In this document: piece after piece, positions 1,802 to 63,382 of the stretch
Numbering within the stretch: the first letter of the stretch is position 1
How the letters are laid out: every line of letters begins with the position of its first letter
Assembly: GCA_018713305.1 (NCBI GenBank)
Contig: DVFI01000092.1
Coordinates: 29,573-93,572, forward strand
Reading direction: 5' to 3'
From: Candidatus Avichristensenella intestinipullorum
GTDB lineage: Bacteria > Bacillota > Clostridia > Christensenellales > Aristaeellaceae
DNA length: 64,000 nt
Translations under genes and position numbers: made by a program
Notes under the pieces: generated by a model
Database searches by the model: none
What the model was told of the DNA's origin: nothing
The model's input: the letters and a program-made list of their open reading frames with translations, nothing else

Positions 1802-1817
1802 TGTTTCACGTGAAACA
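1802..1817. promoter_or_regulatory. parS centromere-like site (ParB/Spo0J binding)
   Basis: TGTTTCACGTGAAACA, identical to the canonical 16-bp parS palindrome. Confidence 0.9.
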
Positions 1818-1838
1818 ATGCCTCCCGGCCGCGCCAAA

Positions 1839-1854
1839 GGTTTCACGTGAAACC
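1839..1854. promoter_or_regulatory. second parS-like site
   Basis: GGTTTCACGTGAAACC, perfect palindrome sharing the central GTTTCACGTGAAAC core, 37 bp from the first. Confidence 0.8.
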
Positions 1855-24713: not shown

Positions 24714-25169
24714 ATGTCAACACCATGTTCCTGTGTAGCGGGCCTGCGGATTGCGCTGGAAATGGAGCGGCGCGGACGCAGCCTCTACCTGCGCGCCGCG
24801 CAATTTGCCCGGGAAGAATCGCTCCGTGCGCTGTTGCTGGAGCTGGCTGATGAGGAATTGGAACACCATACGGTCTTTTCCGCCATGCTCGAGGCTCTGG
24901 GCGCTCCGCCCCTCTCTCCGGAAGAAAACGCGCTGGCCGCCGCGCGCGCAGCCGATGTTTTCTTTCCCGGCGGCCTGATGCAAATTGCGCAGGAAGGCGC
25001 ATTGGCCACGCAAGAGCACATGCTGGAAGCGGCCATACAAGCCGAGCGCGATTCCATTGACTTCTATGAACGCCTGATGGATTCCCTGCCGGCCGACGGC
25101 CGCGACGCCATCGCCGCCATTGTCCAGGAAGAACGCGGCCATTTGCGCGCCCTGACCGCGCGAAAATAG
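24714..25169 (+). CDS. Rubrerythrin/ferritin-like domain protein
   Basis: ALEMERRGRSLYLRAAQFA...LADEELEHHTVFSAM...ERDSIDFYERLMD...EERGHLRAL; EXXH-type four-helix metal-binding pattern. Confidence 0.8.
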   Translation: MSTPCSCVAGLRIALEMERRGRSLYLRAAQFAREESLRALLLELADEELEHHTVFSAMLEALGAPPLSPEENALAAARAADVFFPGGLMQIAQEGALATQEHMLEAAIQAERDSIDFYERLMDSLPADGRDAIAAIVQEERGHLRALTARK

Positions 25170-25284
25170 GCCCTGACCGCCGCACTTGTGTCCGTATCCC
25201 GGATACATTGTGAACACAGTGTGAATACTGTATATTACTCTTTGTGGATGAAATCTCGGCCTCCATTCCTTGTATTTTCAGGAA

Positions 25285-25313
25285 AAACGCCGCCCCCGTT
25301 GGGGACGGCGTTA
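25285..25313 (+). terminator. Hairpin/terminator after the ferritin-like gene, abutting the DnaA boxes
   Basis: AACGCCGCCCCCGTTGGGGACGGCGTTAATTT. Confidence 0.65.
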
Positions 25314-25417
25314 ATTTATCCACAGTCTTATCCACATTCCTTGCATTTTTGTGAATAACTTGGTCGTTTTCTCACTTTTGCGAACAGTTATCCACAGAAA
25401 TACTTTCCGGCGGCAGG

Positions 25418-25624
25418 TTACGCCTTCTCCGCCAGGTATTCGTTGAGCTGATGCACCAGCTCGTCCACATTAAAGCCATGCACCACGCTGGCCTGCTCCA
25501 GGGACTCCGCCGTAGCATGGGGGCAGCCCAGGCAATGCAGCCCGAATCCCATCATAATGCGGGCCGTGCCGCGGTCCATATCCAAAACCTGGCGAATGGT
25601 CATATCCTTATTGATTGTTGCCAT
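25418..25624 (-). CDS. DUF1858 (hybrid-cluster-protein-associated redox disulfide type) small protein
   Basis: MATINKDMTIRQVLDMDRGTARIMMGFGLHCLGCPHATAESLEQASVVHGFNVDELVHQLNEYL. Confidence 0.9.
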   Translation of the reverse strand: MATINKDMTIRQVLDMDRGTARIMMGFGLHCLGCPHATAESLEQASVVHGFNVDELVHQLNEYLAEKA

Positions 25625-25892
25625 GCAAAAGCCCTCCCATTGCGTATTCAACCTATTATATACCCGGCCTTATCAAAAAGTAAACAGAAAAAAAGTCCCC
25701 GGGGCAAAGAGGGTAAAAAGGATTTTCCAGATTCGGCATCGAAGCATTACCAGGTTTCTGCCAAACCATCCACAGGACATCCACAGCAAAAATCAAAGCC
25801 TGTCCCGCTTTGGCATGGTTTTCCACGAAATCAACAGCCCTACTACTACGACGACTACTTATAAAAACCGCCGCTACAAGGAGGAACCACCC

Positions 25893-26999
25893 ATGCGCTT
25901 TACCTGTCTTGCCAGCGATATGGTCAACGGACTGAACATCGTTACCCGCGCCATCGCCACACGCTCCACCATCCAGATTCTCGAAGGCGTGCTGCTGACC
26001 ACCTGTCCGGAAGGACTGCGCCTGACCTGCACAGACCTTGCGCTGGGCATCGAAACCCATATCGATGCGGAAATCGCCGAAGAGGGCAGCGTGGTCCTGC
26101 CCGGAAAGCTCCTGGCCGAAATCATGCGCAAGCTGCCGGAGGAGCGCATGGAGCTGCGCGTCAACGACCAAAATGTGGCGTCCATCCGCTGCGCCGGCTC
26201 GCGCACAACGCTGTCCGGGCTGGACGCGCAGGAGTATCCCCCGCTGCCCGAGGTGGGGGACGCCAAGTCCGTCTCGCTGTCCGCATCCCTGCTCAAGGAC
26301 ATGATTCAGCGCACCACCTTCGCCATTGCCACCGATGAGACGCGGCCGATTCTGACCGGCTGCCTCATAGAATCGGACGGGCACGAGCTGTGCGTCGTCG
26401 CGCTGGACGGCTTCCGCCTGGCGCTGAGGCGACAGGAGTTCCAGGAGGAAATCCCGGCGTTTTCCGCCGTGGCGCCGGGAAAAGTGCTCAACGAGCTGGC
26501 CCGCATTCTCGAAGACGGCGAGCAGTCCGTGTCGCTGATGTGGGGAACGTCGCATCTGCTGGCGGATATGGGGAGCACGCGCGTGGTCGCGCGGCTGCTG
26601 GAAGGCGAATTTATTCGCTACCGCCAGATTTTGCCCGCCGACTGGCAGACGCGCGTGCGCGCTTCCAAGCGCGAACTGGAAGCCGCCATGGACCGCGCGT
26701 CGCTGATGGCCCGGGAAGGAAAGAACAACCTGGTCAAACTGCATATGGAAGATGGCATGATGCTGATTACTTCCAATGCGGAGCTGGGCGATGTGCGCGA
26801 AGAAATCCAGGTGGAAACCGAAGGAAGGGATTTGGACATCGCCTTCAACGTCCGCTATATCAGCGATACCCTTCGGGCCATCGAGGACGAACAGATTGTG
26901 CTCCGCTTCAATTCCAATGTCAGCCCCTGCGTCATTTGCCCGGCGGAAGGAGACCGGTATTTGTATCTGGCCCTGCCGGTACGGGTGTTCTCGGCCTGA
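25893..26999 (+). CDS. dnaN: DNA polymerase III beta sliding clamp
   Basis: MRFTCLASDMVNGLNIVTRAIATRSTIQILEGVLLTTCPEGLRLTCTDL...LPVRVFSA; RBS AAGGAGG. Confidence 0.97.
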   Translation: MRFTCLASDMVNGLNIVTRAIATRSTIQILEGVLLTTCPEGLRLTCTDLALGIETHIDAEIAEEGSVVLPGKLLAEIMRKLPEERMELRVNDQNVASIRCAGSRTTLSGLDAQEYPPLPEVGDAKSVSLSASLLKDMIQRTTFAIATDETRPILTGCLIESDGHELCVVALDGFRLALRRQEFQEEIPAFSAVAPGKVLNELARILEDGEQSVSLMWGTSHLLADMGSTRVVARLLEGEFIRYRQILPADWQTRVRASKRELEAAMDRASLMAREGKNNLVKLHMEDGMMLITSNAELGDVREEIQVETEGRDLDIAFNVRYISDTLRAIEDEQIVLRFNSNVSPCVICPAEGDRYLYLALPVRVFSA

Positions 27000-27000
27000 G

Positions 27001-28125
27001 ATGGTTATCCAACAGCTGCGGGTCAGCGGATTTCGCAACTATGAGCGCGTCGAGCTCTCCCCGCCTCCGGGCATTACCGTGCTCTATGGCGCCAACGCGC
27101 AGGGGAAAACCAACCTCATTGAGGCGGTGTCCCTGTGCTGCCTGGGTCGCTCGCATCGGACGCCGCGCGACGCGGAGCTGGTGCGCTGGGGAGAAAGCAT
27201 GGCGCAGGTGCGCATCCGCGTACAGCGGCGGGACGGCCCGCATGAGGTGGGCGTGACGCTGTCGCGGGACGAGGGACGCAAAAAGGCCATCCGCATCAAC
27301 GGAACCGCCATTGAGCGCATGGGCGAGCTGATGGGCCATGTCAACGCCGTGCTGTTTTCCCCGGAAGACCTGCGGCTGGTCAAGGACGGGCCGGAGGTGC
27401 GGCGCAGATTTCTGGATATGGAAATTTCCCAGCTCCGGCCGGCATATTTCTATGCCCTGCAGCGGTACGCCCGGGCGCTGCACCAGCGCAACGGCCTGCT
27501 GCATACGCTTCGCGAGGAACCCGGGCACGCCCTGGGCGCCACGCTCGACGACTGGGACGCGCTGCTGCTGGAAGCGGGCGCGCAGGTCATTCAGCGCCGC
27601 ATCGCCTATCTGCAGGCGCTGGAAGCGGAAAGCGCGCGCATACACGGCGCGCTGTCGGAAGGGCGCGAAGCGCTGGCGCTCCGCTATGCGGGGCAGGCGG
27701 AGGACGCGCAGACGCTGGAACGCCTGCTGCATGCCGCGCGCGGCGAAGACCTGCGCCGGGGCACGACGACCGTAGGGCCGCACCGGGACGATTTTCGCCT
27801 GCTCATCAACGGCCGCGACGCGCGCCTGTTCGCATCCCAGGGGCAGCAGCGGACGGCGGCGCTGTCGCTGAAGCTGGCGGAGACGGAGGTCATGCGGCGC
27901 ATGCTGGACGAGCCGCCGGTGCTGCTGCTGGACGACGTGATGAGCGAGTTGGATATCAAACGCCGCCGCATGCTGCTGGAAAGGCTGGGCGGCGTGCAGA
28001 CGCTGATTACCTGCACGGACCTGAGCGATTTGGGCGGCGCAAAGCACGACGCGGCAGTCCGCGTGGAAAACGGGGCCTTGCGCGAAGAGACGTCAGAAAA
28101 GGAGAGCGGACATGATACGGTGTGA
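27001..28125 (+). CDS. recF: DNA replication/repair protein RecF
   Basis: MVIQQLRVSGFRNYERVELSPPPGITVLYGANAQGKTNLIEAV...LLLDDVMSELD. Confidence 0.97.
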   Translation: MVIQQLRVSGFRNYERVELSPPPGITVLYGANAQGKTNLIEAVSLCCLGRSHRTPRDAELVRWGESMAQVRIRVQRRDGPHEVGVTLSRDEGRKKAIRINGTAIERMGELMGHVNAVLFSPEDLRLVKDGPEVRRRFLDMEISQLRPAYFYALQRYARALHQRNGLLHTLREEPGHALGATLDDWDALLLEAGAQVIQRRIAYLQALEAESARIHGALSEGREALALRYAGQAEDAQTLERLLHAARGEDLRRGTTTVGPHRDDFRLLINGRDARLFASQGQQRTAALSLKLAETEVMRRMLDEPPVLLLDDVMSELDIKRRRMLLERLGGVQTLITCTDLSDLGGAKHDAAVRVENGALREETSEKESGHDTV

Positions 28126-38695: not shown

Positions 38696-39694
38696 ATGCA
38701 CATCATCGCGGTTGACGCCATGGGCGGGGATCATGCGCCGCAAAGCACGGTGCAGGGGAGCGTGGAAGCGCTGCGCGCCTATGGAGATTTGCGCATTTTG
38801 CTCGTGGGGCAGGAGGAAAAGCTCGCGCCGCTGTTGCAGGATGCCGGGGATGTGCGCGACAGGCTGGAAATCGTGGATGCGCGGGAAGTCATCAGCAACA
38901 ACGAATCTCCGGTGATGGCCATTCGGCAAAAGACGGACGCTTCGCTGGTGCGCGCCTTTGCCCTGGTGCGCGAGGGACGGGCGCAGGCGCTGGTGTCGGC
39001 GGGCTCCACGGGCGCGGTCATGGCCGGCGGCATGTTCCGCTTGGGCCGCATCGAAGGCGTGGAACGTCCGGCGCTGGCTACGCCGATTCCCACCGCCGGC
39101 GGCGGCCAGACGCTGCTGCTGGACTCGGGGGCCAACGTGGACTGCCAGGGCGCGTGGATTGCGCAGTTTGCGCGCATGGGCGCGGTGTACGCGCGGCAGG
39201 TGCTGGGCGTGACGAACCCGCGCGTGGGGCTTTTGAATATCGGCGAGGAAGAGGAAAAGGGAAACCGGCAGACCAAAGAAGCCGGCGCCCTTTTGAAGGA
39301 GACGGGCCTGAACTTTGTGGGCAACGTGGAAGCGCGCGCCATCCCCATGGGCGAGGCGGACGTGGTGGCCTGCGACGGCTTTGCCGGCAATGTCGCCCTG
39401 AAAGCCATGGAAGGCATTACAAAGGCCCTCTTCGACCTGCTCCGGCAGGAGTTGACCGCCAATTCGCGCACCAAGCTGGGCGCGGCCCTGGTCAAGCCCG
39501 CGCTGCGGCGCATCAAAAAGCGCATGAACGCCGAGGAAATCGGCGGCGTGCCGATGCTGGGCGTGTTGGGCGCGGTGGTCAAAGCCCACGGCAATTCCAG
39601 CGCAAAAGCCTTTTTCAGCGCCGTCCGGCAGGCGTACCGCATGCTGGAAGGCAATGTGACGGACATCATCCGGTCGGAACTTCAAGACGTATAA
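38696..39694 (+). CDS. plsX: Phosphate acyltransferase PlsX
   Basis: MHIIAVDAMGGDHAPQSTVQG...ALVSAGSTGAVMAGGMFRLGRIEGVERPALA. Confidence 0.96.
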   Translation: MHIIAVDAMGGDHAPQSTVQGSVEALRAYGDLRILLVGQEEKLAPLLQDAGDVRDRLEIVDAREVISNNESPVMAIRQKTDASLVRAFALVREGRAQALVSAGSTGAVMAGGMFRLGRIEGVERPALATPIPTAGGGQTLLLDSGANVDCQGAWIAQFARMGAVYARQVLGVTNPRVGLLNIGEEEEKGNRQTKEAGALLKETGLNFVGNVEARAIPMGEADVVACDGFAGNVALKAMEGITKALFDLLRQELTANSRTKLGAALVKPALRRIKKRMNAEEIGGVPMLGVLGAVVKAHGNSSAKAFFSAVRQAYRMLEGNVTDIIRSELQDV

Positions 39695-39706
39695 GGAGGC
39701 AAACCC

Positions 39707-39934
39707 ATGTTTGAACGCGTTGCAGGCCTGATCGCCGAACAGCTCAAAATCGATGTCGCTACCATTACCCCGCAGTCCCGCCTGCTGGAGGATTTGAACG
39801 CCGATTCCGCCAATATCATGATGCTGATTATGGACCTGGAAAGCGAATTGGGCATCATGGTCGAGGATGACGCGCTGATGCGCCTGCGCACGGTGGGCGA
39901 TGTCGTGGAATACATCGAAAAGTGCAAGAAATGA
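39707..39934 (+). CDS. acpP: Acyl carrier protein
   Basis: MFERVAGLIAEQLKIDVATITPQSRLLEDLNADSANIMMLIMDLESELGI. Confidence 0.93.
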   Translation: MFERVAGLIAEQLKIDVATITPQSRLLEDLNADSANIMMLIMDLESELGIMVEDDALMRLRTVGDVVEYIEKCKK

Positions 39935-40602
39935 CGGATGCGCATGCGCGCCTGGTTCCCCTGATGGATGCGCTGGGCTGGCGCTTCAAGCGGGAGGCCC
40001 TGCTTGCGCTCGCGCTGACGCATCCGTCCGCCGCCTCCGGGGCGGAGGATAATCAGCGCCTGGAATTTCTGGGCGACGCGGTGCTGCAGCTATGCGTGAG
40101 CCGGGCGCTTTTCGCGCGCCATCCGCAGATGCAGGAAGGTCAGCTGACCCAGCTGCGCGCGGCGCTGGTGCGGGAAGAATCGCTCGCCTGCGCGGCCCGC
40201 GCGTTCGGCGTGGGCGCTTTTTTGCGCCTGGATCACGGAGAGGAACTCTCGGGCGGGCGCGACAAACCCTCGGTGCTGGCCGATGCGATGGAGGCCGTGC
40301 TGGCCGCCGTGTATCTGGACGGCGGCCTGGAAGCCGCCGCCGCCGTGTGCGACCGGGCCTTCGGCGACTACGAACCCCGGACCGCGACGGCCAACTATAA
40401 AAGCCTCCTGCAGGAACGCGAGCAGGCCCGGGGCCATTCCACGCCCGTCTACCGGGTGATTGGGGAAGAGGGACCGCCGCATGCCCGCGCCTTTGAGGCC
40501 GAGGTGTCGGTGGACGGCCGCGTGCTGGGCACGGGCCGCGGCCCTTCCAAAAAACAGGCGGAACAGGCCGCGGCCCGGCAGGCGCTGGGCGAAAATCGCT
40601 GA
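39931..40602 (+). CDS. rnc: Ribonuclease III
   Basis: ALTHPSAASGAEDNQRLEFLGDAVLQLCVSRALF...dsRBD GTGRGPSKKQAEQAAARQAL. Confidence 0.95.
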   Translation: MTDAHARLVPLMDALGWRFKREALLALALTHPSAASGAEDNQRLEFLGDAVLQLCVSRALFARHPQMQEGQLTQLRAALVREESLACAARAFGVGAFLRLDHGEELSGGRDKPSVLADAMEAVLAAVYLDGGLEAAAAVCDRAFGDYEPRTATANYKSLLQEREQARGHSTPVYRVIGEEGPPHARAFEAEVSVDGRVLGTGRGPSKKQAEQAAARQALGENR

Positions 40603-40621
40603 AAGAACGAGGAACGGTGCG

Positions 40622-43600
40622 TTGAAGCTCAAACGCTTGGAAATTCAGGGGTTTAAGTCCTTTGCCGACAAGACGGAAATCGTCTTTGAGCAGGGCACGA
40701 CCGCCATCGTGGGCCCCAACGGAAGCGGAAAATCCAATATCTCCGACGCGGTGCGCTGGGTGCTGGGCGAACAGAGCGCCAAACAGCTGCGCGGCGCGCG
40801 GATGGAGGACGTGATTTTCGGCGGGACGGAAAAGCGCAAGCCCCTGTCCTGGTGCGAGGTATCGCTGCTGTTTGATAATGAAGACCGCGCGTTGGCGATG
40901 GACTGCGCGGAGGTCATGGTAACCCGCCGCGTCTGGCGAAGCGGGGAAAGCGAGTATTACCTCAACCGGGCGGCCTGCCGCCTGAAGGATATTACCGAGC
41001 TTTTCCGCGATACGGGCATTGGAAAAGAGGGCTATTCGCTCATCGGCCAGGGGCGCATTGAAGAAATCCTCAGCAGCAAATCGGACGACCGGCGCGAGGT
41101 GTTCGAGGAAGCCGCGGGCATCGTGACCTATCGCGTGCGCAAGGAAGAGGCGGAGCGCCGCATGGAGAACACGCGCCAGAACCTGGAGCGCGTGGAGGAC
41201 ATTCTCGGGGAGCTGCAAAACCAGCTCGAACCCCTCGAAAAGCAGGCGGAGGACGCCAGAAAGTACCTGGCCCTGCGCGACAGCCTGCGCGATTTGGAGC
41301 TGAACGCGTTTTTGCTCCAGCACGACCGTCTCCACGAACGCATCGCCGTCCTGGAAGAGGCGATTGCCGCGCTGGACGCGCAGATGGCCGAGGCGGAGCC
41401 GCGCGTGCAGGCGCTGGGCGAAGAGCGCGAGAAACTCAACGCGCGCGCAGACGCGCTGGCCCAAGAGGACGGCGAACGCAGCGCGCAGGTGCTGGAGGCG
41501 GCCCGCGCGCTGGAGGCGCGCGAGGGCGCCAATAACGTGCTGCGTGAGCGCATCGCGCATGCGCAGGCGGACGCCCGGCGCGAGGACGCGCTGGCGCAGG
41601 AGGAAGAGGGAAGGGCTGGCGCGCTGGAGCAGCTGCGACGCGAAAACGAAGCGGACATCGCCGCGCGCCGCAGCGCGCTGGAGATGGAGCGGCAGGGGCT
41701 GTCGGCGATGGAACGGGCTTTGGCGGACGCACAGACGGAGGAGACCGCCTGCGAGGAGGCGTTGGAAGGGCATAAGGCGGACATCATGCGGGCGATGAAC
41801 CGCATGGCCGACGTAAAGACCGCGCGGGCCCGGCTGACGGGGCTTGCGCAAAGCCTGACCGGCCGTCTGGAAGAGGCCGAAGCCCAGGCCGCCGCCCTGC
41901 GCGAGGGCCATGAGGAGCTGGAAGAAGCCGTGGGGCGTGCGCGGGAGACGCTGGAGGAAACGCGCGCGCAGATGTCCGACCTGGAGGCGGAGGCGCGCGC
42001 GCTGGACGAGGCGGTGCGCGCGGCGGGCCAGGAGAGCGAAACGCTGCTCGCCCGCCTGCGGGATAGGACCGGAAAACGGCACGAGACGCTTTCGCGCCTG
42101 AACATGCTGCGCGAAATGGAGCGGGATTACGAGGGCTACCAGCATGCGGTGCGCAAGGCGCTGCTCTACGCGCGCGGAGACAAGAGCGTGCGGGGCGTGG
42201 TGGCCGGCGTGCTCAAAACGCCGCGGGAATACGAGCGCGCGCTGGAAATGGTGCTGGGCGCCGCCTTGCAGCAGATTATCACCGAGGACGAGCAGGCCGC
42301 CAAGCGCATGATTGAATACCTGCGGCAGAACCGGCTGGGCCGCGCGACCTTCCTGCCGCTGACCACGGTACGCGGCCGCCTGCTCAGCCCGCAGGAGCGC
42401 CAGGTGCTGTCCATGCCCGGCTGCGTGGGCGTGGCCAGCGAGCTGGTGCGCTTTGAGGAAGAATACCGGGGCGTGGTGGAAAGCCTGCTGGGACGAACGG
42501 TCGTGGCCGAGAACCTGGACGCGGGCATCGCGATTATGCGCCGCGGCCGGCACGCGTTCCGGCTGGTGACGCTGGGCGGCGACGTGATGCATCCGGGCGG
42601 GTCCATGACCGGCGGCTCGGTGCAGTCCAGCGCCACCAGCCTGCTTTCGCGCGAGCGGGAAATCAAGGAACACCAGGCGCTGCTCGCTGCGCTGGACAAG
42701 GAGCTGGCGGATATTCAGGACGGCGTGGCGGCCTGCGACGCGCGCCGCACGGAGGCCAAGCGCGTGCGCAACGAGCTGTTTGAGCGCGTGCATCAGGCGG
42801 AAATCGCCGTGGCGCGCGAGACGGAGCATTACGAACATGCCTGCGCGCAGCGCGATGCGCACGACGAGCGCAGCAGGGAAGCGGCGCTCCTGTGCGAGCA
42901 GATTCGTACCAACATGGCCGATATTCAGGAACAGCTGGAGCGCGCGCAGGCGGACCAGGCGGGAGGAGAAACGAGCCAGGAAGCCATGCAGCAGCGCACC
43001 GCGTCCCTGCAGGCCGCGCTGGCCGCCGCGCGGGAAAAGCTGGAAACGCTGCGCGAACAGGTGACCGCGGGGCGCGTGAGCGTGGCGACGCAGGAACGCG
43101 AGCTGGACGCGGCGCGGCGGGAAGGCGAGCGGCTGCACCGCGAGAAGGGGCAGCTTTCCCAGCGGCGGGAGCAGCGGGATACGGCGCGCCGCCGGCAGGC
43201 GGAATCGCTGGCGCAGGACCGGCAGGCGCTGGAGGCGGGCGAGCAGGAGCGCGCTGCGCTTTCGCAAGCGCTGGAAACGCGCCGCGCGGAACAGGCCGAA
43301 CGGGCCGAGGCGCGCCGCGCGCTGGCCGTACAGGTGCGGGAGAAGACCGACGCGCTGGAGGCGCTGCGCCAGCGCCTTGCCGCCGATGCGGACAGGCGTC
43401 ACCGGCAGGAGCTGCAGCTGGTGCGCGCGCAGGGCGACCTGAAGGGGCTGCAGGAGCGCATCTGGAGCGAATATGAGCTGACCTATGCCGGGGCCGAGGC
43501 GTTCCGGCGCGAGGATTTTGACCTGCGGGAGGCGGAAAAACAGATTGCCTCCATGCGCGGACAAATGCGCGCCATGGGGTCTGTCAACGTCAACGCCGTG

Positions 43601-44179
43601 GAAAACTACCGGCTCACGCGCGAGCGTTTCGAGCAGCTCAACGCGCAAAAGCAGGATTTGCTCAAGGCGACGGAGGATTTGCAGGGCATCATCGCGGAGC
43701 TGCTTGCCAAAATGGAAAGCCGGTTCCGCAAACAGTTCGCGCTGCTCAACCAGTATTTTGCCCGGACGTTTACGGCGCTGTTTGGGGGCGGGCACGCGGA
43801 GCTGAAGCTGGCCGACGAGCACGACGTGCTGGGCTGCGCCATCGACGTGGTCGCACAGCCGCCCGGAAAGAAGCTGCAGCTGCTTTCGCTCCTGTCCGGA
43901 GGAGAACGCGCGCTGACGGCCATCGCCATCCTCTTTGCCATGCTGCAGCTCAAGCCCACGCCGTTTTGCGTGCTGGACGAGATTGAGGCGGCGCTGGACG
44001 AGGCGAACGTGGCGAACTTCGCCGACTATCTGAATAATTTCTCCGCGCGCACGCAGTTTGTGGTCGTCACGCACCGGCGCGGCACCATGGAGCGGTGCCA
44101 GGCGCTCTACGGCGTGGCGATGGAAGAAAAAGGCGTGTCCCGCATGGTTTCCGTCCGCCTGGCGGACGTGGGGGCATAA
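40622..44179 (+). CDS. smc: Chromosome segregation protein SMC (TTG start)
   Basis: (M)KLKRLEIQGFKSFADKTEIVFEQGTTAIVGPNGSGKSNISDAVRWVLGEQSAKQLRG...LLSGGERALTAIAILFAML...VLDEIEAALDEANV. Confidence 0.97.
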   Translation: MKLKRLEIQGFKSFADKTEIVFEQGTTAIVGPNGSGKSNISDAVRWVLGEQSAKQLRGARMEDVIFGGTEKRKPLSWCEVSLLFDNEDRALAMDCAEVMVTRRVWRSGESEYYLNRAACRLKDITELFRDTGIGKEGYSLIGQGRIEEILSSKSDDRREVFEEAAGIVTYRVRKEEAERRMENTRQNLERVEDILGELQNQLEPLEKQAEDARKYLALRDSLRDLELNAFLLQHDRLHERIAVLEEAIAALDAQMAEAEPRVQALGEEREKLNARADALAQEDGERSAQVLEAARALEAREGANNVLRERIAHAQADARREDALAQEEEGRAGALEQLRRENEADIAARRSALEMERQGLSAMERALADAQTEETACEEALEGHKADIMRAMNRMADVKTARARLTGLAQSLTGRLEEAEAQAAALREGHEELEEAVGRARETLEETRAQMSDLEAEARALDEAVRAAGQESETLLARLRDRTGKRHETLSRLNMLREMERDYEGYQHAVRKALLYARGDKSVRGVVAGVLKTPREYERALEMVLGAALQQIITEDEQAAKRMIEYLRQNRLGRATFLPLTTVRGRLLSPQERQVLSMPGCVGVASELVRFEEEYRGVVESLLGRTVVAENLDAGIAIMRRGRHAFRLVTLGGDVMHPGGSMTGGSVQSSATSLLSREREIKEHQALLAALDKELADIQDGVAACDARRTEAKRVRNELFERVHQAEIAVARETEHYEHACAQRDAHDERSREAALLCEQIRTNMADIQEQLERAQADQAGGETSQEAMQQRTASLQAALAAAREKLETLREQVTAGRVSVATQERELDAARREGERLHREKGQLSQRREQRDTARRRQAESLAQDRQALEAGEQERAALSQALETRRAEQAERAEARRALAVQVREKTDALEALRQRLAADADRRHRQELQLVRAQGDLKGLQERIWSEYELTYAGAEAFRREDFDLREAEKQIASMRGQMRAMGSVNVNAVENYRLTRERFEQLNAQKQDLLKATEDLQGIIAELLAKMESRFRKQFALLNQYFARTFTALFGGGHAELKLADEHDVLGCAIDVVAQPPGKKLQLLSLLSGGERALTAIAILFAMLQLKPTPFCVLDEIEAALDEANVANFADYLNNFSARTQFVVVTHRRGTMERCQALYGVAMEEKGVSRMVSVRLADVGA

Positions 44180-44209
44180 ACGCCCGGTATGGTATAAGGA
44201 GGCAAGGAA

Positions 44210-45109
44210 ATGGCGGGGTTTTTTTCTCGGCTGAAGGAAGGCCTGGCGCGCACGCGCGAAAGCGTGGCCGGACGGGTGGACGAGCTGATTCACCATTATC
44301 AGGCCCTGGACGATGATTTTTACGAGGACCTGACCGACGTGCTGGTGATGGCCGACGTGGGCGTGAGCACCTCGGACGAAATTGTCGGCGAACTGCGCAA
44401 ACGCGTGCAGGCGCAGCGGGTGGGAGACCCCGCCAAGGCACGGGAAATGCTCAAGGAAATCCTCAAGGAGCGCATGCGCTCGCCCAGGCCGCCGCTGCAG
44501 TGGCCCATGGTCATGCTGGTCGTGGGCGTCAACGGCGTGGGCAAAACGACGACCATCGGCAAGCTCGCGCTCCGTTTCAAGGGCGCGCAGCACGGCGTGA
44601 TGCTGGCCGCGGCCGATACCTTCCGCGCGGCGGCGGCGGATCAGCTTCAGATTTGGGCGGATCGCGCGGGCGTGCCGCTGGTGCGCCATGCCGAGGGCGC
44701 GGACCCGGCGGCGGTGGTGTACGACGCCATTGCCTCGGCCAAAGCGCGCAGGGCGGAGCTGTTGATTATCGACACGGCGGGCCGCCTGCATAACAAGAAA
44801 AACCTGATGGACGAGCTGGGAAAAATCCGCAAAATCGTCCAGCGCGAGTATCCGGAAGCCGATTTGCGCACGCTGCTGGTCATCGACGCGACCACGGGCC
44901 AGAACGGCCTGACGCAGGCCCGCGTCTTTAAGGAAGTGGCCGAGATTAACGGCATTGTCCTGACCAAGCTGGACGGTACCGCCAAGGGCGGCATCGCCAT
45001 CGCCATCCGCGAGGCGCTGGACGTTCCGGTCTGGTATGTGGGCGTGGGCGAAGGGATAGACGATTTGCAGTCCTTCGACGCGGACGAATTTGTGGAAGCG
45101 ATTTTCTGA
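44210..45109 (+). CDS. ftsY: Signal recognition particle receptor FtsY
   Basis: GVNGVGKTTTIGKLALRFKG...DTFRAAAADQLQIW...DTAGRLHNKKNLM...TKLDGTAKGG. Confidence 0.96.
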   Translation: MAGFFSRLKEGLARTRESVAGRVDELIHHYQALDDDFYEDLTDVLVMADVGVSTSDEIVGELRKRVQAQRVGDPAKAREMLKEILKERMRSPRPPLQWPMVMLVVGVNGVGKTTTIGKLALRFKGAQHGVMLAAADTFRAAAADQLQIWADRAGVPLVRHAEGADPAAVVYDAIASAKARRAELLIIDTAGRLHNKKNLMDELGKIRKIVQREYPEADLRTLLVIDATTGQNGLTQARVFKEVAEINGIVLTKLDGTAKGGIAIAIREALDVPVWYVGVGEGIDDLQSFDADEFVEAIF

Positions 45110-45141: not shown

Positions 45142-46812
45142 ATGGAACTCAACTGGCTGGGAGGATGCGTCCTGGGCGCGCTGTTCCTGCTGCTGTCGGG
45201 CTGGATGCTGTTTTCCCAACTGCGTGCGCGCAAGCGCCTGGAAGACAGGCTGCGCAGCGGCTTTGGCCGGGCGCCGGATGCAGAGGAACAATACCGGCTG
45301 GACGGGGTTGCGCGCTATGACGAACAGCGCGCCGCGCAGGCACAGGGCGAGGGCCGCGTAGACGATATCACCTGGAACGACCTGGACATGGACGCGCTGT
45401 ACCGCCGTGTGAACGTATGCCTGACATCGGCGGGGGAGGCGCGGCTGTACCGGCTGCTGCGCGAGCCGGAGGAAAGCGACGCAGAGGCGTGCGAAAAGCG
45501 TATGGCGCCGCTGGCAGAGGAGGCGCTGCGCTTTCAGGTACAGCGGCTGCTGCTGCGCGCGGGCAAGGAACACCACAGCGCCATGGAGTCGCTGCTGTTT
45601 GCGCCTGCCGCCTCGCGCATCCGGCCGGGCTGGCTGTTCCCGTTGCTCCTGGCGGCAGAGGCCTTGTCCCTGCCGCTGTGGTTCTTTTGGCCGGCGGCCG
45701 GGCTGGCGCTGCTGATAGCGGCCGTGGCGGCGTCCAGCGCCTTTTCCATGGCGTACAGGCTGCGCATAGACGCACAGCTTCGCGGCCTGCGCTATCTGGC
45801 CTCGCTGTTGTGGGCGGCCCGCAGGCTCTGCGCGATACAGGGGGATGCGTGGCGCGCGTGCATAGCGCCGGTGCGGGAGGCGGCGCAGCCGCTGAAACGG
45901 CTTCGGGGCCTGCTTTCGGGCGACGCCAGCTTCATGGCGGGGGATTTGCTGTTTGTATGGGACCTGCTGCGCATGCTCGTGCCGGTGGATCTGGTGCTTT
46001 TTAACCGCCGGCTTGCGTTTATGCAGCGCGAGCAGGAACGGGTGCAGCGCTTTTATGAAGCGATAGGGGATATCGACGTGGCGCTGTGCGTGCTGTCGTT
46101 GCGCGAAAGCCTGCATTTCTGGTGCCGGCCTGATTTTACGCAGTCGCTTGAAATCCGCTTTGAGCGGCTGTACCATCCGCTTCTGGCCCATCCCGTGGAC
46201 AATAGCGGCCATGTGGGGCGCAGCACGCTGATTACCGGCTCCAACGCCTCCGGCAAGTCCACGTTTATCCGCTCGCTGGCGCTGGGGATGATTATGGCCC
46301 GCAGCCTGCATACCTGCTGCGCGCAGCGCTTGTGCGTGCGCCGTATGCCGGTGTTTACCTCCATGGCGCTGCGGGACGATTTGCTCGCGGGCGAGAGCTA
46401 CTTTGTGACGGAAATCAAAAGCCTGCGTCGGATTCTGGAAGCGGTGCGGCGGGGCCCGTGCGCATGCTTTGTGGACGAGATTCTGCGCGGCACCAACACG
46501 CCCGAGCGTCTGGCGGCCTCCACGGCGGTGCTGCGCTGGCTGCACGGGCAGGATTGCCTGTGCGCCGCGGCCACGCACGATTTGGAACTGACGCGCATCC
46601 TGCGCGAAGAATACGCATGCTTTCACTTCCGGGAACGGCTGGAAAACGGCGAAATCCTGTTCGATTACCGGCTTTATCCCGGCCCTTCGCGCACCCGCAA
46701 CGCCATCGGCCTGCTGCGCGTGATGGGGCTGGACGCGGACATCGTCGACGAAGCCGAGAGGCTTGCCGGCCGGGATGAGGAGGAGGAAACGGCTTCGCCC
46801 CAGGATGGCTGA
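45142..46812 (+). CDS. Membrane-anchored MutS-family ATPase
   Basis: N-terminal and internal TM segments; ITGSNASGKSTFIRSLALG; CFVDEILRGTNTPERLAAS. Confidence 0.85.
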   Translation: MELNWLGGCVLGALFLLLSGWMLFSQLRARKRLEDRLRSGFGRAPDAEEQYRLDGVARYDEQRAAQAQGEGRVDDITWNDLDMDALYRRVNVCLTSAGEARLYRLLREPEESDAEACEKRMAPLAEEALRFQVQRLLLRAGKEHHSAMESLLFAPAASRIRPGWLFPLLLAAEALSLPLWFFWPAAGLALLIAAVAASSAFSMAYRLRIDAQLRGLRYLASLLWAARRLCAIQGDAWRACIAPVREAAQPLKRLRGLLSGDASFMAGDLLFVWDLLRMLVPVDLVLFNRRLAFMQREQERVQRFYEAIGDIDVALCVLSLRESLHFWCRPDFTQSLEIRFERLYHPLLAHPVDNSGHVGRSTLITGSNASGKSTFIRSLALGMIMARSLHTCCAQRLCVRRMPVFTSMALRDDLLAGESYFVTEIKSLRRILEAVRRGPCACFVDEILRGTNTPERLAASTAVLRWLHGQDCLCAAATHDLELTRILREEYACFHFRERLENGEILFDYRLYPGPSRTRNAIGLLRVMGLDADIVDEAERLAGRDEEEETASPQDG

Positions 46813-46876
46813 GGGGCCGTTGAAGAGCCAACGCGACGGCATGGCGGCAAGGCCATGCCGTTTTGCGCATGTCTGA

Positions 46877-47987
46877 TACTATTCTCAAATATGATTGACA
46901 ATTATAGATATTGTGGTATAGTACTTATGGGTGATGGAAATGAAAGGCTATAGCATAAACGCAGAAGAGTATCAAAAAATAGAGGAAGCCGAGAAACGGT
47001 GCAAAGATAAACGAACATCAAAGAAGTTAACGGTGCTATTAATCCGCTTTAGCGGGGTAAGCATTGCCGAAACCGCGCAGAGAATGAACTGTTCAGAGAG
47101 GAAAGTAGCCCGCCTCATATCAGAATACAAGAAGCAGGGGCTTGAAGAATTCATGCGCAACAAGTATGTCGGAGGCAATCATCGCAGTCTGAGTGAAGCG
47201 GAAGAAAAGGAGATCCTTGTCCCGTTTGAAAAGATGGCAGAGCAAGGACATATGGTTACAGCACAGGAGATCAAGAAGGTTTTTGATAAAAGGATTGGCA
47301 AGGATACCGGCCGGGGATATATTTATATGCTTCTGAAAAGACACGGATGGCGTAAGGTCATGCCCAGAGCCAAACATCCCAAGAAAGCAGATGAAGAGGC
47401 GATTCGAGCCTCAAAAAAAATAACGATACAGTAGGAGTTTTGGCAAAACAAAATCCCAAGAAGAGGGTACGGCTGTTATTTGAGGACGAAGCGGGATTCG
47501 GAAGAATCAACAAGCCCAGGAATTGTTGGTGTATGAAAGGAATTCGTCCATCCGTTCCCTGTCATCATATACGGGAATACCGCTATGTATATGGCGCTGT
47601 TGATCCAATAGATGGAGAAAGTCTTTTTCTTGTCATGCCATACTGTAATACAGAATGCATGTAGGTATTCTTGAATCAGCTTCGATCAACGTTTCCTGAT
47701 GACATCATCGTTCTGATCTGCGACGGTGCTGCATGGCATAAATCTGTAGCGCTAAAAGTGCCAGCAGGAATATCCATCCTGCATATACCACCGTATACTC
47801 CGGAAATGAATCCCATTGAGCAGATCTGGCGCGAACTGCGAACTCAGGGATTTCGTAATGAGGTTTTTGCTACATTGGAAAAGGTGGTAGACCGCTTGTG
47901 TGAGACAATCAACCATCTTTCTCGTTATACCATTATGAGCATTACACAACGTAAGTGGATAATGGATATTTTTATTTGAGATTAGTA
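46877..47987 (+). mobile_element. IS630-family insertion sequence, decayed
   Basis: Inverted ends CTATTCTCAAATA / CTAATCTCAAATA flanked by TA; DDE motifs LLFEDEAGFGR, LICDGAAWHK, PPYTPEMNPIEQIWRELR; frames broken at 47413-47434 and TAG at 47662-47664. Confidence 0.9.
46931..47979 (+). pseudogene. IS630 transposase: frame shift at A8 run plus in-frame TAG
   Basis: ORFs 46931..47434, 47440..47664 and 47671..47979 together make one IS630 transposase. Confidence 0.85.
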
Positions 47988-48110
47988 TAAGCCGGCATGA
48001 TTTCCAGATCAACCTCTTCCTCCAGGAAAATTTTCGATGGATCGTGCAGACATTTCCCGATCCTGTGCATCTTAAGGGTGTATCGCGATACGGAAGAGAC
48101 GAAAGGAAGG

Positions 48111-48605
48111 ATGGACGTGGAAGGAAAGCGACAACGCGATGCGCGTTTCGTGGAAGCCATCCGCCAGAACCGTGCCGGCATGTTTTGCGTTGCGCGCATG
48201 ATGCTTCGCTCGGACAGCGACGCAGAGGAGGCCGTGGCCGATGCGACGGAACGGGCCTATGCGCACCTGTATGCGTTGCGCAACTGGCAGAGTATCCGCC
48301 CCTGGCTCATGCGCATCACGATCAACGCCTGCCACAAAATCCTCAGACGGCGAAAAAGGGAGATTCCCAGCGACGATGTCCAGGTGTTTGAACGGCAGGC
48401 GCCGCCGCGCGAGACAGAAAACATCTGGGCCCTTGTGGAGCGGCTGGAGCCGCTGTACAGCCTGCCCCTGACGATGTACTATGCACAGGGCATGAAACTT
48501 GAGGAGATTGCCAAAGTGCTGCACGCGCCAAAAGGCACGGTTTCGGCACGCATGGCGCGCGGAAAGCAAAAGCTCAGACGCATGATCGAGGAGGAGAGAG
48601 CATGA
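48111..48605 (+). CDS. ECF-type RNA polymerase sigma factor
   Basis: FVEAIRQNRAGMFCVARMMLRSDSDAEEAVADATERAYAHLYALRNWQSIRPWLMRITINACHKILRRRKRE...region 4 YYAQGMKLEEIAKVLHAPKGTVSARMARGKQKL. Confidence 0.92.
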   Translation: MDVEGKRQRDARFVEAIRQNRAGMFCVARMMLRSDSDAEEAVADATERAYAHLYALRNWQSIRPWLMRITINACHKILRRRKREIPSDDVQVFERQAPPRETENIWALVERLEPLYSLPLTMYYAQGMKLEEIAKVLHAPKGTVSARMARGKQKLRRMIEEERA

Positions 48606-49582
48606 ATGAGCATGAACTGGAGGACAGACTGCACCATGAACGGATCATCCTGCCGGAGGGATTTGACGGGCGCCAGGAAGCGGTTCTCTTTCGCGCCATG
48701 GAGCAAAAACGCAGGCCGGTCCAAAGAGCCTTTGTGCTTGCGGTCGCGCTGGCGCTGCTGATCTGTGCGACGGCACTGGCTGCCGATGGCCTGGGGCTGG
48801 CCTTCTTCTGGGGCGATGCTTCGCCGGATGCTGAGTCGCTCGTGGAAAGGGGCGTTCCTCAGTCGGGCGGACAGCTCGATGATGCGACGTTTACGGTTCG
48901 GGAAGCGGTTTTCGATGGGAATACATTGCAGGCTGTTGTGGCGGTGCAAGCGGTGGAAGGGAAGCGCGCGGTGATGCAGGGCTATCACGGCAATGTGAGC
49001 GCGGATGGCGTGCTTGTGGATTGCGGCGAAGAGGGCAGCATCGAATGGGCGGAAGAGGAGGACGGCACGCTGCTTTTGTACATCAGCCAGGCGATTTTCT
49101 CTGAGGAAGCGCAGCTCAGCGTCACATGGCCATGCAGCACAGCGCTGGCCAGTGCGGATGGTTCAAGGTGGGTACATGAACAGTCGGGCGTGCTCTGCTT
49201 TGAGGTGCCGCGCATTGAGGCGCAGACATTGAAGCTGTCTGCGACGGTCGATTGGAGCGGCCTTCTGACGGTGACGGATGTTGAGGTGGCCTACACGCCG
49301 CTGGGCATGGATCTGCAAATCCGCTATGTGCCGGGGGAAAGGCTGAAAAATGCAGTGCCTTCTTTCTATGTCGGACGGGAGGAGGACGCGGTCAATCATC
49401 GAGGGGGTGAAATCAGCCGCACGGGCAATGCGCAGGATGGCTATACCCTGCACGTCCGGTTTTACACGCCGGACAGCTTGCCGCACACGCTGACGCTTGG
49501 CGTGCGCGGGATGGAAGACCGGGTTTTGTTTGACTTTGACAGGCAGACCGCGATACTGATTGCAAAGGAGGTAGAACAATGA
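48602..49582 (+). CDS. DUF4179-type membrane protein, probable anti-sigma partner
   Basis: 4-bp overlap with sigma gene; short cytoplasmic N-term, one TM (AFVLAVALALLICATALAADGLG), beta-rich extracellular part. Confidence 0.75.
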   Translation: MNEHELEDRLHHERIILPEGFDGRQEAVLFRAMEQKRRPVQRAFVLAVALALLICATALAADGLGLAFFWGDASPDAESLVERGVPQSGGQLDDATFTVREAVFDGNTLQAVVAVQAVEGKRAVMQGYHGNVSADGVLVDCGEEGSIEWAEEEDGTLLLYISQAIFSEEAQLSVTWPCSTALASADGSRWVHEQSGVLCFEVPRIEAQTLKLSATVDWSGLLTVTDVEVAYTPLGMDLQIRYVPGERLKNAVPSFYVGREEDAVNHRGGEISRTGNAQDGYTLHVRFYTPDSLPHTLTLGVRGMEDRVLFDFDRQTAILIAKEVEQ

Positions 49583-50661
49583 AAAGAGGGTTGCTGCTCG
49601 CATGTGCGCTGATGGTCAACGCAAGCCTGGCTTCGGCTGAGGTGGTGAGTGCGCCCCTGCCGGACAGGCATATTCAAACGGCGATTGAGCGCGAAACGTA
49701 TACGATCGCCGTGGACGCAGACATCTATGGGGAGACGATCGACCGCGTGCAGGCCTACCGGGTCACGACGCTGGATTGGGGCGAGAATCCGGAAGAGGCG
49801 TTTGACCTTGCGCTGTGGTTTGATGAAACCGTTCCGCTCGAAAAAAAGGATTACGACAGCATCGCGTTTTTCCCACAGGGGCAAGAGGAGCGGATCCTCT
49901 GGCGCGATGAGGCGCGTTTCAGCCCCTATGCGATCACCTTTCAGCGGGAGACCCACGCGCGCCTGGAGTTCCCGTTTGAGCGGCTCGCTGTCGAAGGCAT
50001 CGTCGAATCGGTGGACGCGCAGCTGCTGGAGGGATTCTCTTTGCAGCAGGCGGAGCAGGGGATCAATCCGATTCTCGACGCGCTGGGCGTGACGATCCAG
50101 CGCGAGCCGGTCTTCGTCTCCTGCATGACGCTCGGGGACTGGCAAGCGGAAACCGGGAAGAAGCTGGCATATGGCGTTGCACCTGATGAGTTCGTCGTCG
50201 AGAACTGGACACAAGAGGATGAAAGCTGCCTGATCCACTACCGCCAGCTTTTTCATGGCTTGCCCATGATGGAGACGGACGAGCACATGCCCGGCATCGT
50301 GGAGTGGGAAACGCCCAAGACCCTGGTCTGCGCATTGTGGAGCCGCAGAGGGCTGGAAAAACTCGAGTTCCCCTTTGTCGTTGGAACGCAAACGGCGCTG
50401 GGTGAGCCCTTTGCGCCGATCACAGCGGATGAGGCGCTTGCCGCGTGCCAATCTGCCGACATGAACCTGGGCGAGTGGCGCAATCTGCACATCTCGCGGA
50501 TAGAACTGGGGTATGTGATGCTGGCCAAGAACATCGCCCAAACGGAAATCGAAGCGCGGCCCGCATGGCTGATCCGCATCTGGGGAGAAATTCTAGGGAA
50601 TATGGAAAGCGTGGTCGCCGCGGTGGATGCGCAGACCGGCGACATGATGCTGAGCCTGTGA
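49579..50661 (+). CDS. Secreted hypothetical protein of ECF-sigma operon
   Basis: MKRGLLLACALMVNASLASAEVV signal peptide; overlaps upstream stop. Confidence 0.7.
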   Translation: MKRGLLLACALMVNASLASAEVVSAPLPDRHIQTAIERETYTIAVDADIYGETIDRVQAYRVTTLDWGENPEEAFDLALWFDETVPLEKKDYDSIAFFPQGQEERILWRDEARFSPYAITFQRETHARLEFPFERLAVEGIVESVDAQLLEGFSLQQAEQGINPILDALGVTIQREPVFVSCMTLGDWQAETGKKLAYGVAPDEFVVENWTQEDESCLIHYRQLFHGLPMMETDEHMPGIVEWETPKTLVCALWSRRGLEKLEFPFVVGTQTALGEPFAPITADEALAACQSADMNLGEWRNLHISRIELGYVMLAKNIAQTEIEARPAWLIRIWGEILGNMESVVAAVDAQTGDMMLSL

Positions 50662-62587: not shown

Positions 62588-63382
62588 TCAGCCGGTTTTC
62601 CTTTCTCCATCCACCGCATTCGCCTTTTCCACAAAGTCGGCGGGCTTTACCGTCATTTCCGCCCAGGCAGGCAAAAACCCGCTTTTCACGGCATTTCTGG
62701 CGGATGGGATGTTCGACCACGCGCAGCAGTAAAACGGTACCTTGCCGTGCGCTAAAACCTCCACGGCCAACCGGCTCGTAAGCGCCGAGGCGACCCCTTG
62801 CCGCCTGTATTCGGGCAAAACATCGACTCCTATCTGCCACATGGTTTCACAATCTGCAGAGCAACCGGCCAGCCCTATCAGCCTGCCGCCGTCGTATGCG
62901 CCAACGCCGAGCACATCCAGCTCCTTTCTGTCGGCGCAAAGAGCGTTGCGCCACGCTTTTGTATAGAGAGGTTCAAAATCTTTGGGGTGCAGAAGCCTTG
63001 TTTCATAGCGGCAGTCAAGCCGCGTAAGCTTACGCACATCGGGCAGGAAATAATAGGCCATAAAGCAAACCTTTTGCCCGAAGCGTGCAAGCTTTTCATT
63101 CAGCCAGAGACAATTTGGCGTTTCAAACAGATGATAATGGTCATATCTCTTCACATATTCAGCTGCTATCTCCTTAACATCAGGTTTTGCGGCGGCAACA
63201 ACATTGCTGCCGTATGACACAAAATGGCAGGCAATGGGCTCCTGATAATACACCCTTGCTTTTTTGCCCAAACAAAAATCCGTCACCACCGATTCGGATT
63301 TTAGAAAGTCATCCGCGCTGCAGCCCATATCCGCTGCCGACTGTTCCCGTGCCGTGCGGTGTATTTGCTCGTTATGGAACAT
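62588..63382 (-). CDS. GNAT N-acetyltransferase
   Basis: IGVDVLPEYRRQGVASALTSRLAVEVLAHGKVPFYCCAWSNIPSARNAVKSGFLPAW. Confidence 0.88.
   Translation of the reverse strand: MFHNEQIHRTAREQSAADMGCSADDFLKSESVVTDFCLGKKARVYYQEPIACHFVSYGSNVVAAAKPDVKEIAAEYVKRYDHYHLFETPNCLWLNEKLARFGQKVCFMAYYFLPDVRKLTRLDCRYETRLLHPKDFEPLYTKAWRNALCADRKELDVLGVGAYDGGRLIGLAGCSADCETMWQIGVDVLPEYRRQGVASALTSRLAVEVLAHGKVPFYCCAWSNIPSARNAVKSGFLPAWAEMTVKPADFVEKANAVDGERKTG

Follow-up and report, generated by a model that had tools for sequence, protein, structure and literature searches.

The arrangement of dnaA, oriC and dnaN is regarded as near-universal in the Firmicutes and is the basis for origin prediction. The place of dnaA at the origin is often held to matter for the control of initiation, both through the doubling of dnaA just after the origin has fired and through autoregulation of the operon that it forms with dnaN. 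In the bipartite origins of Bacillus subtilis and Clostridioides difficile, DnaA boxes and a DnaA-trio lie directly upstream of dnaN (the oriC2 or incC position), a second box cluster lies farther upstream so that the clusters flank dnaA, and dnaN and recF come next. The basal unwinding system (BUS) is defined by two co-oriented boxes, a short G/C-rich spacer and a trinucleotide repeat with the consensus 3'-GAT-5' (PMC6669920, PMC10721633), and DnaA-dependent melting in C. difficile takes place between dnaA and dnaN, at a site that carries the trio CACCTACTACTATTACTACTATGA, in the same place as the module described below (PMC7561715). In the cyanobacterium Synechococcus elongatus, oriC lies by dnaN at a skew shift point and dnaA is encoded separately (PMC7198777). 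Intergenic clusters that bind DnaA outside the core origin are represented by the DnaA-box clusters of B. subtilis and by datA of Escherichia coli.

The window analysed here forms the final 64 kb of the 93.6-kb contig C132. This contig belongs to a metagenome-assembled genome (MAG) of 2.35 Mb in 151 contigs, whose nearest kin are uncultured Clostridia MAGs; the closest named records for its DnaN are a 'Bacillota bacterium' MAG (71%) and then Candidatus Onthenecus (60%). The locus shares with the bipartite Firmicutes origins the boxes and trios directly upstream of dnaN, the second cluster farther upstream and the dnaN-recF order, and differs from them in that dnaA and rpmH are gone, a reverse-oriented DUF1858 gene stands between the two clusters, and the distal cluster is tied to that gene. 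From left to right, a ferritin-like gene (+) is followed by weak boxes, a hairpin, four boxes, DUF1858 (-), an AT-rich stretch, further weak boxes, DnaA-trios, dnaN (+) and recF (+). The features are as follows.

1802..1854, no strand: parS sites TGTTTCACGTGAAACA (1802, exact) and GGTTTCACGTGAAACC (1839, two mismatches); distance to the origin 24 kb
24714..25169, plus: rubrerythrin/ferritin-like gene, convergent with DUF1858 (Pfam Rubrerythrin 2.8e-9; start uncertain, 24762 in the gene model)
25220..25251, minus: two weak DnaA boxes, GTATTCACA (25220) and TCATCCACA (25243)
25286..25312, no strand: hairpin with a 12-bp stem, predicted DUF1858 terminator and possibly bidirectional (T tract on the minus strand, terminator-like on the plus strand)
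25316..25396: DnaA-box cluster at 25316 (+), 25328 (+), 25350 (-) and 25388 (+), spacing 12/22/38
25418..25624, minus: DUF1858 (hybrid-cluster-protein-associated redox disulfide domain) gene, 68 aa (PF08984 1.5e-18, TIGR03980 3.1e-24, PDB 2k53 6.9e-20)
25655..25684, minus: putative sigma-70-like promoter for DUF1858 (TTTACT-18-TATAAT), AT-rich, a consensus match at 10/12 positions
25766..25785, plus: two weak dnaN-proximal DnaA boxes, CCATCCACA and ACATCCACA
25819..25836, plus: co-oriented degenerate DnaA boxes of the unwinding module, TTTTCCACG and AAATCAACA
25840..25867, plus: DnaA-trio array CTACTACTACGACGACTAC followed by TTATAAAAA, predicted unwinding site (BUS model 24.4 bits at 25824)
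25893..26999, plus: dnaN (sliding clamp), 368 aa (TIGR00663 7.2e-88)
27001..28125, plus: recF, 374 aa (TIGR00611 2.7e-110)

The original gene calls for DUF1858 (68 aa), dnaN and recF were upheld by Pfam and NCBIfam profiles, and the DUF1858 scores exceed the curated cut-offs (67.1 bits versus 32.2, and 84.7 versus 44.95 for TIGR03980).

The segment before dnaN had been described as a second AT-rich stretch with weak boxes; these are present, but the segment is better seen as the candidate functional core, holding the DnaA-trios. Its sequence from 25819 to 25867 reads TTTTCCACG AAATCAACA GCC CTACTACTACGACGACTAC TTATAAAAA, with the AT-rich TTATAAAAA, a putative duplex unwinding element, directly after the trios. 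As in the defined BUS, co-oriented boxes stand beside DnaA-trios (25819-25858; 0 of 500 shuffles), although here both boxes are degenerate and the run of trios is interrupted by two CGA triplets. The BUS model score of 24.4 bits at 25824 is the best on both strands of the 64 kb and unique in the genome. When the weight matrix was trained solely on 18 dnaA-adjacent loci, none of them from the split group, and applied elsewhere, the window scored 19.2 bits at -69 from dnaN and none of 500 shuffles was as good. At 49 of 58 split loci, none of 60 shuffles matched the score, compared with 0 of 46 control stretches before recF. In nearly all of the 80 related loci, whether dnaA is there or not, dnaN is preceded by boxes, CCC and CTA repeats in that order. 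The unwinding site is accordingly predicted, from these sequence features, to be the dnaN-proximal half and not the four-box cluster.

dnaA, rpmH and gyrB, noted originally as absent from the window, were located on contigs C101, C60 and C4/C136, respectively. The dnaA gene on C101 is intact (440 aa, TIGR00362 3.8e-168) and is followed downstream by a DUF5711-like gene and then a CvpA (colicin V production) gene; DUF1858, in place of dnaA, lies between the two box clusters of the window. Separation of dnaA from dnaN could arise from assembly or binning of a genome that is a 151-contig MAG. This explanation is extremely improbable, as the sister species and 87 family genomes show the split too, five genomes have it inside one contig (dnaA and dnaN 38 kb to 1.28 Mb apart), and the contig of the window is continuous for 55 kb upstream of dnaN. 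Both genes were found in 125 of 150 family genomes, being adjacent in 38 and not adjacent in 87, a count somewhat inflated by contig breaks. Relocation is common in the family and not peculiar to the source genome. Among the 80 named dnaN loci, collected by an alignment-based search of genome contigs, 58 have no dnaA upstream of dnaN, and for almost all of these the sequence extends 1.7 kb or more upstream. On the DnaN tree the adjacent/split label changes 3 times, versus 19.7 for shuffled labels, and few, old events are therefore indicated.

The usual rpmH-dnaA-dnaN context is also lacking in relatives, where rpmH and dnaN are 209 kb to 0.9 Mb apart. In three relatives with large contigs (G026, G114 and G155), rpmH, parB and gyrB all lie from ~0.14 Mb to more than 1 Mb from the origin. 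With these genes and dnaA dispersed, only dnaN, usually together with recF, has therefore stayed from the classical neighbourhood.

Cumulative GC skew in the window declines as far as 26.4 kb, runs level until 38.3 kb and then rises, with the lowest value at 38.3 kb barely below that at 26.4 kb (-1847 versus -1815); window skew alone places the switch within 26-38 kb. Genes on either side of 25.8 kb run in mixed directions, and the best strand switch is at 16.4 kb; this and the low point at 38.3 kb count against an origin at 25.8 kb. Skew curves of relatives were drawn from sampled 20-kb stretches and not whole contigs. In the near-complete G155 (3.41 Mb contig) the minimum is at 2,590,894, within 100 bp of the dnaN start (2,590,831), and dnaA is at 1.306 Mb, 1.28 Mb away. 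The minimum in G026, also near-complete (3.97 Mb contig), is at 63,307, just past dnaN (63,582-64,688) in recF, with dnaA at 16 kb, 46 kb away. In G114 (3.26 Mb contig) there is a switch near dnaN (1.671 Mb), with dnaA at 0.458 Mb, 1.21 Mb away, and a second, deeper minimum at 1.719 Mb, 47 kb further on; the BUS model hardly scores there (-1.8 bits). A skew switch at dnaN or recF, as expected of a chromosomal origin, is present in G026 and G155, and one near dnaN in G114 alongside the second minimum. parS, likewise expected near a chromosomal origin, begins at 1802 in the window, 24 kb from dnaN, and lies 2.3-6 kb from dnaN in ~35 loci of relatives (2.3 kb in G155, 3.0 kb in G114 and 23 kb in G026). 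Across loci L054-L121, parS sites occur at the near-constant distances of ~+2.3, +3.1 and +6 kb from dnaN, often near DnaA-box clusters at ~+5.2 kb.

A second box cluster beside dnaA that carried the skew switch had been named as an outcome that would overturn the prediction. Such a cluster does exist, with three exact boxes 49-217 bp upstream of dnaA (L010:3576, 3588 and 3744), and would suit an origin at dnaA on C101 with the dnaN site as a relic. That reading is very improbable: on C101 the best BUS score across 20 kb is -1.8 bits, which leaves no BUS-like site, parS is absent and the skew shows no clear switch, the dnaA-bearing stretches have no parS, dnaA sits deep in the negative-skew arm in G026, G114 and G155, and the boxes are compatible with ordinary autoregulation of dnaA. 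The original proposal that dnaA was relocated and the origin kept is thus borne out, as dnaA is on C101 while BUS, parS proximity and local skew agree near dnaN; in near-complete relatives, too, these three features single out dnaN.

The region is very probably the chromosomal oriC. The reading that we favour, with a probability of roughly 0.88, is that it is the chromosomal origin of a Clostridia MAG from a family in which dnaA and oriC have become uncoupled, with DnaA loading from the 25819-25836 boxes onto the trios and melting before dnaN. From the observed and conserved anatomy, the skew and parS surroundings in relatives and the absence of dnaA, we infer a mechanism in which DnaA would be produced from the distant, box-flanked dnaA gene, bind the boxes upstream of dnaN and load from the two co-oriented boxes (25819-25836) onto the trios (25840-25858), whereupon the AT-rich DNA just before dnaN would melt. 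The four-box cluster (25316-25396) would most likely raise local DnaA by looping, as do the oriC1 or distal incC boxes in Bacillus and Clostridioides. Like S. elongatus, this genome has dnaA and dnaN apart and the predicted oriC beside dnaN, but it belongs to another phylum, retains a Firmicutes-type BUS and comes from a family in which adjacent and split members occur together.

The distal cluster was originally described as four perfect boxes in 81 bp. Four boxes are present, three of them perfect (TTATCCACA at 25316, 25328 and 25388, plus strand) and the fourth with a single mismatch (TTATTCACA at 25350, minus strand), and the near-consensus copies were recovered as reported, with one mismatch at 25243 and two at 25220 (both minus strand). 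No other exact TTATCCACA occurs in the 64 kb, and the 2.35 Mb genome has 14 in all, these three included. With up to one mismatch allowed, the window has 10 boxes versus 3.74 expected (0 of 100 shuffles reached 10), and 2000 Markov samples of the local sequence gave a maximum of 2 such boxes per 81-bp stretch, compared with the 4 observed. The cluster may be the old oriC1 from upstream of dnaA: read in reverse, it has the same box order (- + - -), but its spacings of 38/22/12 versus 47/12/12 differ by about one helical turn.

The cluster had been taken as the first half of the origin. A second cluster upstream does exist, but it tracks the 3' side of DUF1858 and lies 128 kb from dnaN in G026. 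At least three boxes occur within 450 bp 3' of DUF1858 at 14 of 70 loci and on the 5' side at none of 70, and in several relatives the cluster lies between DUF1858 and a ferritin-like gene, 8-10 kb from dnaN. As the G026 copy, with the 12/22 spacing kept, lies inside the positive-skew arm, the DUF1858 cluster was rejected as the origin of the family. This distribution, following DUF1858 rather than dnaN, would fit a separate DnaA-binding locus that is tied to DUF1858, titrates DnaA and, in this genus, only happens to be close to the origin. We give a little under an even chance to this alternative, which bears on what the cluster does and leaves the position of the origin untouched. It sits less well with the source genus, where the cluster is only ~420-500 bp from the predicted unwinding site and must therefore act on local DnaA, with the sister L044 (G001), which holds the 12/22/38 spacing at the identical place 3' of DUF1858, and with the many DUF1858 loci that have no boxes. 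Against a role of the cluster in the origin, DUF1858 is directly before dnaN in G062 yet the four-box cluster is absent. The cluster resembles the B. subtilis DnaA-box clusters and datA in being an intergenic group of boxes, which is apart from the core origin in G026, but differs in being linked to DUF1858 and, in the source genus, in lying inside the origin beside BUS. It may be either a stand-in for oriC1 that acts by looping or a separate DnaA-binding or titration site, and its position gives slightly better than even odds of a role in the origin in the source genus.

Transcription of DUF1858 points away from the unwinding site, and the predicted transcript would cross the four boxes before reaching the terminator hairpin (RNA fold -21.7 kcal/mol, z -4.0). 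The question had been raised whether transcription of this redox gene affects initiation. The path of the transcript across the boxes would allow DUF1858 transcription, or its protein, to modulate initiation, and no more than 15 kb separates DUF1858 from dnaN in 12 of the 16 genomes with both on a shared contig, a sample biased to short distances. Such redox control is nonetheless quite improbable, as several relatives have DUF1858 far from dnaN (up to 128 kb) and boxes are missing at many DUF1858 loci; only the source genus and G062 have the gene, reverse-oriented, immediately before dnaN. A broader version, in which the DUF1858-linked cluster would be a control element that binds DnaA, is conserved and mobile, and has been co-opted in this genus as the second half of a dnaA-less origin, with redox-gene transcription through the boxes coupling initiation to redox state, is speculative and unlikely. 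No paper linking DUF1858 with replication, and none on oriC in this group, came up in literature searches.

Two thirds of the sampled family genomes are without the dnaA-oriC-dnaN arrangement, with dnaA up to 1.28 Mb away, and BUS, parS and the skew switch remain at dnaN. The family is a natural experiment on whether the usual place of dnaA matters. Caution is warranted when origins are called or contig starts set by dnaA in these gut bacteria, which also touches metagenomic peak-to-trough estimates of growth.

Several minor observations were made. G091 and G137 each have two dnaA and two dnaN genes, one pair being split and the other, more distant pair being adjacent, which may reflect contamination or a second replicon. 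In the window, plsX-like fatty-acid, rnc, smc and ftsY genes lie at 38696-45109, ~13-19 kb from the origin, and G+C falls to ~0.52 at 46000-50000, versus 65% for the contig, possibly marking an acquired segment. A third DnaA-box cluster on G000:C144 (L013:4307-4660), with five co-oriented boxes in ~110 bp, three spaced 42 bp apart, is flanked by MGMT-like and N-acetylmuramoyl-L-alanine amidase-like genes (named from translation) and is a possible titration or regulatory site.
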